Assembly (NCBI GenBank): GCA_016432465.1
Contig: CP066690.1
Coordinates: 747,666-786,723 of the forward strand
DNA length: 39,058 nt
DNA from: Candidatus Sungiibacteriota bacterium
GTDB taxonomy: Bacteria > Patescibacteriota > Minisyncoccia > Sungbacterales > HO2-52-23
Direction: 5' to 3'
Part shown: piece by piece, positions 176-11,352 of the stretch
Position numbering within the stretch: position 1 is the first letter of the stretch
Layout of the letters: each line of letters opens with the position of its first letter
Made by a program: the position numbers and the translations under genes
The notes under the pieces: model-generated
What the model saw: only the letters and a program-made list of their open reading frames with translations
Databases searched by the model: none
Told to the model about the DNA's origin: nothing

Positions 176-1981
176 CTATGGCAATTTGTATATAAAAATT
201 GAGCCAATTTGGGCAACTGGGGGATAGGGTTTTAACCACTCATAAGAGTCTTCGGGTTTACGGATAAATCCCGGCGCGGGAGTTCCAAATGCGCTTTGTC
301 TGAAAGTTGCGGAGATGGCAAACCAGTCATGCGCTGGTCCCCGGCCTGACCACCAGCCCTCAAATTTATCATCTAAATAATATTTCGGATCTCCGCCGCC
401 AAAATAATCCACGGCAATTTTTTCTATTTTATTTTTCTCAACATATTGCGCAAGGCGTTTTAAATCTTGTCCCCAGTCATAATTGGAATCAACTGCGATT
501 TTCCATCCGGAACGCGAACCGCCGGCAAATTCATTATAGTAGGTCATAAAATGCGGATATGCGCTTACGGTTCCCAAGGTGAGCCATAAAATCATAAGCG
601 CCACAAAAATATACTTGGGCACCGATTTTACAAAAATTTGATAAATTATTTTCAGCCACTCAATCCAATTTTGTGGCGTAGAAATTTTGTGAAAACGCAG
701 CCATTCTGTAATTTGTTTCGCCACCAGTAAATAGATAAAAGGAAAAGTTGGCAGTACGTGGCGCACGCCGATATTTAACGGCGATTTTATGGAGATTAAC
801 CAGTAAAATGCTATAAAAACAAGCGCGGAAAATTCAATAAAATGATTTTCAATCCACCCCCGTCCTCCTCCGAAGTCGAACTTCCTTAGGAAGTTCGACT
901 TCTTTATGCTAAACCAAACGGCAACTAACGTTAAAACATGCAGTGCCAGCGGTTCTTTTAAAAGATAAAGGAGTGGAAAGTAGCTCCGCGAGCCGGTATT
1001 TGATACCTCGCCTAAGAAAAATTGGGTGTTTCCGCCGAGCGCCCGTTGATTAACCATCAAAACCCCAAGCAAATACTGTCCCAAGGGCCGTGTAATTTTA
1101 TTTTTAACAAGCGCAATATCAAAATCCACCGGCGGCCGGAAACCGTAGGACGAAAGAAGAAATTCAGTGTCGCGGAGTTGACGCGCTTGAGGATAGTTCC
1201 AAGTGAACGGCACATATACGAGCCAGACGAGCAGCATTCCCAAAACTCCGACCATTGCTATTTTCCAAAGATACCGCAGGCCAACACGTACTCGTTCGTG
1301 AAAATGCAGGTTGGGTTGCGAAAAGACCCAGAAAATCCAGAGCAGGCCGTAGAGCGGGATAAGAAGAATGAGTGAAAATTTAATTAACTGCGCAACCCCA
1401 AAGGCAAGGGCCGAGACCAGCAGATTTTTCCAGGTTGGAGCTTCAAGAAATTTAAGAAAAGTAATTATACCGATAAAAAATCCAAAAGCCGCGCCCAAAT
1501 CGGTAGTAACGTAGCGCGAATGTGTGAGAAAAGTAGGAGAGAAAGCAAAAAACGTAAGTGCGAGCAAGGCTACCGTATTTCCAAACCGCTTTTTGGTCCA
1601 GTCAAAAAATAGCCAGCCAAAAAGAATAGCAAGAAGAATAAGCGGAAAGCGCGACCAGAAAATTATTTTGTCAGCATTGTTGCCGGAATTGTATAAAAAT
1701 TTTGTTCCTTGTGCCCATTGGCCATTGATATCGTCTTGCCAGTAAGGAGTATCGGTTGGGAAATGGGGTTTTGTAAAGATTTGTCCGGATAGTGCGGCCA
1801 GCGCCTTCAAAAGCGGCGGGTGCTCGGGATTTAGACGATAGTCAAGTTGAGTGACATATCCAAACCCTGCCGGAATGTGCGCTAGTTCATCCATAATGGC
1901 TGAATCATTACGAATTGAATCAAGCATGAGAAAAAGCATTACGAGGAGTATGGTAGCTGCCCCTATGTTGACTTTTTTCAT
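176..1981 (-). CDS. GT39/PMT-like membrane glycosyltransferase
   Basis: This is a 601-aa polytopic membrane protein of the GT-C fold, resembling dolichyl-phosphate-mannose protein mannosyltransferases and ArnT-like enzymes. Such enzymes move a sugar from a lipid-phosphate donor to a protein or lipid on the outer face of the membrane. The first helix is followed by an acidic pair (D31-E32, in DELAHIPAG) in the first outside loop, the expected GT-C catalytic position. A tail motif (NYDWGQDLKRL) precedes a soluble C-terminal end. I chose the ATG at 1981 because TATACT sits exactly 7 nt upstream and a hydrophobic helix follows; a longer frame to 2077 adds a polar stretch without a ribosome site. 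A 31-bp palindrome at 872-902 is translated in frame in a loop between helices. Donor and acceptor cannot be told from sequence. Confidence 0.85.
   Translation of the reverse strand: MKKVNIGAATILLVMLFLMLDSIRNDSAIMDELAHIPAGFGYVTQLDYRLNPEHPPLLKALAALSGQIFTKPHFPTDTPYWQDDINGQWAQGTKFLYNSGNNADKIIFWSRFPLILLAILFGWLFFDWTKKRFGNTVALLALTFFAFSPTFLTHSRYVTTDLGAAFGFFIGIITFLKFLEAPTWKNLLVSALAFGVAQLIKFSLILLIPLYGLLWIFWVFSQPNLHFHERVRVGLRYLWKIAMVGVLGMLLVWLVYVPFTWNYPQARQLRDTEFLLSSYGFRPPVDFDIALVKNKITRPLGQYLLGVLMVNQRALGGNTQFFLGEVSNTGSRSYFPLLYLLKEPLALHVLTLVAVWFSIKKSNFLRKFDFGGGRGWIENHFIEFSALVFIAFYWLISIKSPLNIGVRHVLPTFPFIYLLVAKQITEWLRFHKISTPQNWIEWLKIIYQIFVKSVPKYIFVALMILWLTLGTVSAYPHFMTYYNEFAGGSRSGWKIAVDSNYDWGQDLKRLAQYVEKNKIEKIAVDYFGGGDPKYYLDDKFEGWWSGRGPAHDWFAISATFRQSAFGTPAPGFIRKPEDSYEWLKPYPPVAQIGSIFIYKLP
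872..902. repeat. In-frame palindromic insert (copy 1)
   Basis: GAAGTCGAACTTCC, a TTA centre, then the exact reverse complement: 14-bp perfect arms inside the coding region of the glycosyltransferase. It encodes part of a hydrophilic loop (SNFLRKFDF). The same 13-bp arm core recurs in the second glycosyltransferase at 3609-3665, which suggests a mobile palindromic element tolerated in protein loops. Confidence 0.8.
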
Positions 1982-1988
1982 AGAATAG

Positions 1989-1994
1989 AGTATA
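1989..1994 (-). promoter_or_regulatory. -10 box TATACT, leaderless start
   Basis: TATACT on the minus strand is followed by exactly 7 nt and then the ATG at 1981. Transcription would therefore begin at or next to the start codon. No clear -35 box is seen. Confidence 0.55.
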
Positions 1995-2077
1995 ATTAGA
2001 ATATACAGTTTAGATTTTAATCTCGGCTTTATTATAGCAAAAATCAGGCCATTCCACGAGAAGAAAGGGGGAGTCAA

Positions 2078-2293
2078 ATGGCCAAGAAGGTGCAGGCGGC
2101 CCAGTCAAAGCCAGTCGTCAAGCCGTCGCAGCAGGTTTCTGCGGGCGGCGGCCCCATGGGGAAGTTCGCCATGAAGGGCGCTGTTGTATTCGGTGGTGCC
2201 CTCAACCCCACGCATTGGAGGGAGGAAATCCTCCGACGGGGGGCGACCATTCTCGAGGAGGGCGAAGGCTGGTTGAGCTACGGCATAGCGTAG
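2078..2293 (+). CDS. 71-aa orphan hypothetical protein
   Basis: Not recognised. The ATG has a strong ribosome site (AAAGGGGGAG, 4-5 nt before it), and a terminator follows the stop, so it looks like a self-contained transcription unit. The N-terminal third is Lys/Gln/Ser/Pro-rich and probably disordered. The rest (GKFAMKGAVVFGGALNPTHW onward) looks like a small folded segment, without membrane helix or signal peptide. Its codons are noticeably GC-richer at third positions than those of both flanking glycosyltransferases, which point the other way; this suggests a separately acquired gene. Confidence 0.6.
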   Translation: MAKKVQAAQSKPVVKPSQQVSAGGGPMGKFAMKGAVVFGGALNPTHWREEILRRGATILEEGEGWLSYGIA

Positions 2294-2315
2294 GCCGTGG
2301 CCCAGCCGAGGAGTC

Positions 2316-2358
2316 AGGAGCGGTGTATGGGTTTTGCCCAGCCGCTCCTTTCAATTTA
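2316..2358 (+). terminator. Intrinsic terminator of the 71-aa gene
   Basis: AGGAGCGG (2316-2323) pairs with CCGCTCCT (2342-2349), with an additional TGGG/CCCA pairing inside, followed by TTCAATTT. It lies 20 bp past the stop of the small + strand gene and overlaps the 3' end of the convergent glycosyltransferase. Confidence 0.65.
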
Positions 2359-3988
2359 CCAAAATTACGAAATCTCCCGGGACTTTAATCTTTAGACCCT
2401 CAAATTTTTCTTGAATGTTTTTTATAAGTTTTCTATCACCGCCGTTGAGAAATGCGATCACCGTCTTTTGTTGAGGCAAAACCTCTATAGCAGAGACCAT
2501 AGAGGTTTCGTCTCTATAGGGTATATATGTAATATTTTTTTCCATGCGCTCTTTTTTTCTAAATGTATTCGTGGCGAACATTACGGTTTGGGTCGGAGCA
2601 GGGATGCCACGGATATCAACTCCGAGCATATTTACCACTACATATTTTTTTACATCATTCGGCAATCCATTTAGATACTGCCCCAAGTGCCAGATATCCG
2701 TAGAGAAAGCAAAATAAGAGTTGGGATTATAGGCCCACTGAACGAAATACTGTTGGAATGTGTACAACGGAATAAAAAGCAGGGTCAGCATTCCAAGTAT
2801 AAAGACCTCTTTTTTAATACGCTCCAGCTGGCCTGTATACTGCGGCCATTTTATCTTCTGCTTTTCAAGCCAGTCTTTGACTTTGTGATAAATCCACCAA
2901 GACCCAAAACCCGAAAGAATCATAATCGGCGGAATCATGCCAATAGAGCGAAGGGCGTGCGGTAGTCCTTCGCGGGTAAGGGTGGCAGGAAGCGACATAA
3001 AGAAAAGCCATGCTATCAAGGTTAAACCTTGGTAACCAGGGGCTAACCTTGATAGCGCTAAGATGCCGATAGTGGCAAGTATTCCGTACGGCAGAAATGG
3101 TTGACAATCAAAATTGTGCCGCCAGTTACAGTCTCCGCCGCCGGGTACAAAAAACATACCTAAGGTTTTGGCATTGGATTTAACAAATTCTAAAGCCTGA
3201 TTTTTTGCCGAAAAAACAGATACCTCACCTGCCCGTCCTATAAAATCCTGGGGATTTTCAAAAAAATAAAGTGCGAGCGGCAGACCCACCAAGATGTTTA
3301 CTAAAAGAAAAAGTGCCACTAGGCATGGTATACAGTTTGTTTCTTTGTTTTTCCACCAACGAATAAGATAGATAATAATTGGTACTGCCAAAACAAAAGG
3401 CATAAACCTGAAAGCAATATAGGTATGGAATCCAAGGCCGGTAAATATACCGGCTGCGATTATGCTCCACAATTTCCCCGTACGCAGGCCTTTGAGTAAA
3501 AAATATAGAGCAAAACTGGCAAAAAATGGCACCATAATTGCGCGAAATCCAATGCGGGAAAAATTGATGTGCCAGAAACTCACGGCAAGAAAGAAACTGG
3601 TAAGGAGAGCGATTGAAGTCGAACTTCGCTCACTTCGCTCATGATTGAAGTTCGACTTCAATCGCAAGAGTTCGCGCGTCAAGAGGAATATCCCCAATAT
3701 CGTCAAAGTCCCAAAAAAGGCGCTTACTATCCGCAACGCCCAAGGCACGTTTCCGAAAAGCCCCAACGCTATTGCCTGCAAATTAATAAAAAGACCCTCA
3801 CGGCCGTTGTTTTCTGGATAAAATGTTTTGAAGTCACCCGTGGCAAGCGCCTCTAGGGCATTATTGCCGTTCATGGCTTCATCCGGATAAAGTCCCAACG
3901 GGATTTCGGTGATAAGATAAAAACGGAAAAATGCACCAAGGGCCAGAATACCTAATAAAATTAACAAGACACCGGTTCGTTTACTCAT
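2351..3988 (-). CDS. GT39/ArnT-like membrane glycosyltransferase
   Basis: This is a 545-aa multi-spanning protein, a second GT-C type glycosyltransferase. The first helix is followed by LGLYPDEAMNGNNAL with the acidic pair D36-E37, the usual metal/catalytic site of PMT/ArnT-like enzymes. About ten further hydrophobic segments and a soluble C-terminal tail follow. It is divergently transcribed from the VirD4-like operon; the 27-bp gap holds overlapping -10 boxes for both directions. The start is the ATG at 3988, with TATAGT 7 nt upstream. A 57-bp palindromic insert (3609-3665) is translated in frame within a loop between two helices. The acceptor is unknown; surface polymer or glycoprotein is likely. 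Confidence 0.82.
   Translation of the reverse strand: MSKRTGVLLILLGILALGAFFRFYLITEIPLGLYPDEAMNGNNALEALATGDFKTFYPENNGREGLFINLQAIALGLFGNVPWALRIVSAFFGTLTILGIFLLTRELLRLKSNFNHERSERSSTSIALLTSFFLAVSFWHINFSRIGFRAIMVPFFASFALYFLLKGLRTGKLWSIIAAGIFTGLGFHTYIAFRFMPFVLAVPIIIYLIRWWKNKETNCIPCLVALFLLVNILVGLPLALYFFENPQDFIGRAGEVSVFSAKNQALEFVKSNAKTLGMFFVPGGGDCNWRHNFDCQPFLPYGILATIGILALSRLAPGYQGLTLIAWLFFMSLPATLTREGLPHALRSIGMIPPIMILSGFGSWWIYHKVKDWLEKQKIKWPQYTGQLERIKKEVFILGMLTLLFIPLYTFQQYFVQWAYNPNSYFAFSTDIWHLGQYLNGLPNDVKKYVVVNMLGVDIRGIPAPTQTVMFATNTFRKKERMEKNITYIPYRDETSMVSAIEVLPQQKTVIAFLNGGDRKLIKNIQEKFEGLKIKVPGDFVILVN
3609..3665. repeat. In-frame palindromic insert (copy 2)
   Basis: Two perfect 19-bp arms (GCGATTGAAGTCGAACTTC and its reverse complement) flank a 19-bp centre containing TTCGCTCACTTCGCTCATGA. 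The total length of 57 bp is a multiple of three. Its inner arm core GAAGTCGAACTTC equals that of the insert at 872-902. It encodes a polar loop (KSNFNHERSERSSTS) between membrane helices. Confidence 0.85.
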
Positions 3989-11234: not shown

Positions 11235-11352
11235 TCCCTACCGAGACCCCTCAATAGGAAGAGGGAAGTTGCCCCTCAAAAAGCCTTTTCCGCCAGAGGC
11301 GGATCCGCCTTCGGAGGAAGGTACTTGATTCCTACAAATCCGATACCGGGGA
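11235..11352 (+). repeat. Intergenic structured repeat, copy 2
   Basis: It begins TCCCTACCGAGACCCCTC, has a CCCT/AGGG hairpin, then GTACTTGATTCCTA and ends GATACCGGGGA. A GC-rich palindromic insert (CCGCCAGAGGCGG followed by ATCCGCCTTCGGAGG) interrupts the right half at about 11290-11318. It ends about 34 nt before the ATG of the next gene. Confidence 0.8.

Follow-up and report, generated by a model that had tools for sequence, protein, structure and literature searches.

In-frame palindromic repeats of REPIN-like build in protein-coding genes of a Candidatus Sungiibacteriota bacterium and its relatives

We analyzed a 39,058-nucleotide stretch of DNA (hereafter, the window) from the complete genome of a Candidatus Sungiibacteriota bacterium (923,369 bp), the whole sequence of which was scanned, and found a dispersed palindromic element that many genes carry in frame and that leaves them unbroken. 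The element is built of 2 inverted 13-nt hairpin units of the form GARGTYNRACYTC and has its closest known counterpart in the REP/REPIN-RAYT system, from which it is set apart by its host from the candidate phyla radiation (CPR), by the absence of the known tags, and by its mostly genic location. We put at roughly 75% the probability that this is a REP-type mobile palindrome, REPIN-like in build, which is most likely spread by a Y1 (HUH) RAYT and survives in tolerant protein loops.

The 2 palindromes of the window, to which no strand is assigned, are each contained in an uninterrupted minus-strand open reading frame (ORF) for a GT-C type glycosyltransferase, namely, GT1 (positions 176 to 1981, read from an ATG; PMT family match) and GT2 (2351 to 3988; PMT_2 family match). 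The first pair (872 to 902) is a perfect 31-bp palindrome with 15-bp arms and a 1-nt center, consists of units at 872 to 884 and 890 to 902, and reads KKSNFLRKFDF in GT1, whereas the second (3609 to 3665) spans 57 bp, with perfect 19-bp arms and a 19-nt loop, has units at 3615 to 3627 and 3647 to 3659, and reads LRLKSNFNHERSERSSTSIA in GT2. A sequence-only reading of the window had reported both palindromes, their common arm GAAGTCGAACTTC, and their translation in frame, all of which stood up to measurement, as did the 19-bp arms of the longer palindrome; those of the shorter one had been given as 14 bp. It had also pointed out that 57 is a multiple of three, which is correct, but 31 is not and length alone is therefore no argument. 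In single-strand DNA folding, the 2 loci reached z-scores of −6.2 (872 to 902) and −6.6 (3609 to 3665), far beyond the shuffled sequences, none of which folded equally well. The common arm is present in each orientation, such that each locus represents an inverted pair of GAAGTCGAACTTC, and the arm is palindromic in its own right, GAAGT-CGA-ACTTC, with the 13-nt form GARGTYNRACYTC, which is the true repeat unit. An imperfect palindrome in GT2 (3012 to 3056, also without an assigned strand) has a AAGGTTAAACCTT unit and is possibly related; alignment with close relatives gave no insertion for this palindrome or for the one at 2473 to 2514 of the same gene.

A genome-wide search for the arm, which the sequence-only reading had proposed as a check, gave 22 occurrences at up to 1 mismatch (11 per strand listing), compared to 1 for a reversed control. 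Across the whole genome, GAAGT-NNN-ACTTC is present in 49 copies versus 1.7 expected under a Markov-4 model, and GAGGT-NNN-ACCTC in 16 copies versus 0.7 expected; given the reversed control for the arm and the Markov-4 excess of GAAGT-NNN-ACTTC, the repeat is not a product of chance. Like a REP, it is a short hairpin with a genome-wide distribution. Single GARGTYNRACYTC units lie mostly between genes. Exact inverted GARGTYNRACYTC pairs number 7, with 1 intergenic and 6 in frame in the genes for TsaD, PolX, LysS (lysyl-tRNA synthetase), MurB, GT1, and GT2 (host gene names in this genome by NCBIfam), and a slightly diverged pair in UvrC constitutes the seventh genic pair. The pairs of this genome are 31 to 57 bp long. 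Reading of the sequences revealed zero stop codons over all 6 frames in the common form of the unit, GAAGTCSGACTTC, and in the window variant, GAAGTCGAACTTC, and hence survival inside genes is favored. Perfect inverted repeats can also result from local template switching or from fold-back during assembly, but such an artefact is hardly credible for identical units that recur in different genes, in independent assemblies, and in many genomes.

The genome contains several other palindromic repeats. The TsaD gene (genome positions 432850 to 434055) holds 3 different palindromic segments (433080 to 433161, 433595 to 433631, and 433917 to 433943). A second type of element, with the ends CCCGTTAGAGRT...AYCTCTAACGGG, has about 20 genome copies, 2 of which bracket tRNA genes; the copy in frame in MurB (genome 847526 to 847596) corresponds to a 25-residue insertion absent in all 14 aligned relatives and has TGGGC on both sides. 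Hairpins of CAAGTCTGACTTGGC immediately follow several tRNA genes in a large tRNA cluster (genome 439 to 442 kb), and about 13 longer palindromes, mostly intergenic, are built on GGGAAGTCAGACTTCCCTTGCTGCGG (e.g., L030 8643 and L037 8936). Palindromes of the form TCCGCC-NNN-GGCGGA are found at 11288 to 11319 of the window and at genome positions 374980, 624548, and 672963; they also occur as inverted pairs, and some are located in ORFs, where they read FSARGGSASGG. The palindrome CACTTAAAANCGATCGNTTTTAAGTG (100 to 143 of the window) has 6 genome copies, at 543, 1165, 747774, 851609, 865794, and 905402, all of them in a region of about 180 kb that surrounds the GC-skew maximum (at 891 kb); considering this placement and a DnaA-like gene near the skew minimum, these may be terminus-region sites.

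Comparison with orthologues indicates that the pairs add residues to many of their host proteins. For 30 of 55 elements with a spanning orthologue, the alignment showed an orthologue gap of ≥8 residues, compared to 3.4% of control windows, some elements being counted twice due to duplicates from one contig that entered by 2 routes. The GlyRS, LeuRS, and GatB of relatives have clean additions of 14 to 16 residues compared to the G000 orthologues. Relative to most relatives, the pairs of the genome studied here add about 7 residues in PolX, about 8 in LysS, and about 6 in MurB; these net gains fall short of the palindrome lengths, and sequence must therefore have been replaced or subsequently trimmed. 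The AlphaFold model of LysS (mean pLDDT of 65) was too poor for placing the insert. In GT2, the second-pair segment starts right after the predicted membrane helix 82–107 of an AlphaFold-type model, used for placement only, and the loop comprises 26 residues versus 13 in the 4 shortest homologues, a difference of 13 residues. Other relatives have longer loops with different palindromes (z = −9.3 in G004 and z = −5.3 in G010), and this variation in both length and palindrome marks the site as a tolerant, hypervariable loop. The check proposed in the sequence-only reading, whether homologues lack the loop segment, supports an insertion in GT2 relative to the 4 shortest homologues, but not in GT1, where the 26-residue loop falls within the range of the homologues (25 to 31 residues) and no net insertion is seen. 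In-frame sites with homologues devoid of the element, as known for Rickettsia palindromic elements (RPEs), are present in GlyRS, LeuRS, GatB, PolX, LysS, and MurB, but were not seen in GT1. No near-identical empty site was present among the genomes compared, and the insertion ends and any target duplication or target-site signature could consequently not be read.

The pairs extend well beyond this genome: 7 of 13 family members and 11 of the 23 genomes that represent the order have them, with zero matches for the reversed-pattern control. A scan of GTDB genomes recovered at least 118 stretches with pairs, mostly from CPR groups (Giovannonibacteria, Liptonbacteria, Vogelbacteria, Nomurabacteria, and others); among the matches listed, pairs were also found in some Chloroflexota, cyanobacteria, and others. 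The exact unit was found in only 3 of 380 genomes of a broad phylum sample, which had few members of the same class, and is therefore patchy across the phylum. Among the matches listed, the pairs were located inside ORFs of at least 150 codons in 61 of 91 cases from CPR or unnamed bacteria and 5 of 14 from Chloroflexota, compared to 0 of 18 elsewhere, and 114 of the 123 pairs outside this genome had complementary centers, that is, were inverted doublets as in REPINs. The units are translated in all 3 frames, yielding KSDF (56), SPTS/SRTS (40), and EVGL/EVRL (26). Host genes in relatives, named by eye from sequence, encode GlyRS, LeuRS, GatB, KsgA, MutM, Mfd, UvrC, and a ROK kinase. In Mfd, the same site holds pairs of 2 different unit types in 2 genera, and the UvrC pair site is common to this genome and another genus. 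The UvrC site, together with the complementarity of arms, centers, and often inner flanks, would fit functional mRNA hairpins maintained by selection (e.g., for translational pausing or RNA processing) and positioned where the protein tolerates them. We consider this explanation improbable, because identical sequences occur in unrelated genes and between genes, are mostly absent from orthologues, and are patchily distributed, and because the window elements had no match in Rfam, where a single sub-threshold, miRNA-like hit concerned another palindrome.

A candidate enzyme for the spread of the element is encoded by most genomes of the order. The Y1 transposase family PF01797 was detected in 17 of 23 order genomes, and the genome studied here has 2 Y1 transposases of RAYT type, both with PF01797 above the cut-off. 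The RAYT alignment contains the motif LMPNHYH, consistent with a Y1 domain with an HUH motif; the sole NCBIfam match of the RAYTs was to REP_Tyr_transpos (NF047646), under its curated cut-off, and a PDB sequence search with RAYT returned no significant relative. RAYT-1 (genome 196732 to 197412) has GAGGTCGGACCTC hairpins just upstream, within the coding sequence, and just downstream, RAYT-2 (genome 537936 to 538649) is associated with 4 GAGGTTNAACCTC-type units, and the flanking hairpin of RAYT-1 recurs as a doublet in LysS, where it makes up the pair. Across these genomes, RAYT genes often have 2 to 4 copies of a single hairpin in and around them; in relatives, many have a hairpin version specific to them, frequently at approximately codons 58 to 68, and the RAYT of G015 is flanked by the unit GAAGTCSGACTTC. 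Overall, at least 2 copies of one hairpin were present at 11 of 25 RAYT loci, compared to 5 of 178 control loci. Because RAYTs are often bracketed by such hairpins and carry them, the REP/REPIN-RAYT system is the closest known kind.

The exact GAAGTCGAACTTC unit flanks neither RAYT of this genome, and the known REP tags are not enriched, with GTAG or GTGG beside the hairpin foot in 4 of 250 flanks (7.8 expected) and CGTC beside the units in 6 of 250 flanks (4.0 expected); for these reasons, mobilization by a RAYT is something that we infer from the association between hairpins and RAYT genes. The most plausible scenario is that a RAYT recognizes the hairpins of the REPIN-like inverted doublet on single-stranded DNA and then spreads copies, so that the element would move by a single-stranded DNA route. 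Where a copy happens to enter a tolerant protein loop in frame, it would survive selection and be translated, adding roughly 6 to 16 presumably neutral residues. Binding sites for a chromosome-organizing protein could also be short conserved palindromes located inside as well as outside genes, and matS, a 13-bp palindrome with a YNR center, is similar in form to the unit. The inverted doublets, varied spacers, and hairpin flanks, as well as the clustering of like hairpins at RAYT genes, speak against such sites and leave this interpretation with very little probability.

REPINs are inverted REP doublets tied to RAYTs (PMC3116915; PMC2817692). The element resembles these systems in its short hairpin unit, its inverted doublets folding into a long hairpin, and, for some unit versions, a link to the RAYTs they flank (PMC3116915; PMC2817692), but differs in lacking the GTAG/GTGG tag, in its 13-nt unit, in the hairpin that several RAYTs of this clade hold within their own coding sequence, and in that genes are not avoided, two thirds of the CPR pairs being located in long ORFs. 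In contrast to REPs of the GTAG superfamily, it is not mainly extragenic, with 6 of the 7 exact pairs in this genome lying in genes. In-frame intragenic REPs, both single and paired, are known in Proteobacteria, Opitutus, and Rickettsia, and their hosts include uvr genes and tRNA synthetases (PMC3733652). The CPR element shares with these GTAG and CGTC REPs the single and paired arrangement, the in-frame location, and the uvr and tRNA synthetase hosts, but carries neither tag. Perfect palindromes in protein-coding genes, reaching 284 bp, have also been described for the mitochondria of Nematomorpha (PMC6649704), a likeness of description. Consistent with the sequence-only reading, which knew of no CPR equivalent, the literature searched, with partial coverage, yielded no report of in-frame REPs in CPR.

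The sequence-only reading had likened the palindromes to those of Rickettsia, and this interpretation is partly supported. Palindromic elements of Rickettsia and Wolbachia likewise add in-frame peptides to housekeeping proteins and leave the genes unbroken; to our knowledge, no link between them and RAYTs is known. The likeness in behavior does not extend to membership: RPEs, from another lineage, are described as 100 to 150 bp in length, and RPE-4/6 are classed with the CGTC REPs (PMC3733652), whereas the pairs described here measure 31 to 57 bp and are untagged. A selfish, gene-borne palindrome of the Rickettsia type, spreading by a route independent of RAYT, would account for in-frame insertion at variable loops of housekeeping genes, as reported for RPEs (PMC3767692; PMC3733652), and for genomes that have pairs without a matching RAYT, such as G010, with 12 pairs and no detected RAYT. 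The differences in length and tag, and the like-formed hairpins that repeatedly flank the RAYT genes of the clade, make such an origin unlikely.

For the REP-type element, a further and more tentative possibility is that the RAYT/REP systems of this CPR lineage have adapted to coding sequence, through stop-free units, doublets in essential enzymes, and a cognate hairpin in the RAYT frame that might serve self-regulation, and together might keep supplying novel peptide loops to a genome that is very compact. RAYT would offer a testable enzyme for protein-coding palindromes such as those of Rickettsia. The element is also a warning that insertions in CPR proteins may derive from transposons and not from function. 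REPs owe their name to their extragenic position; if most REP-like doublets of a lineage prove to be translated as parts of essential enzymes, this would show how selfish DNA persists in tiny, dense genomes that are almost free of spacers.
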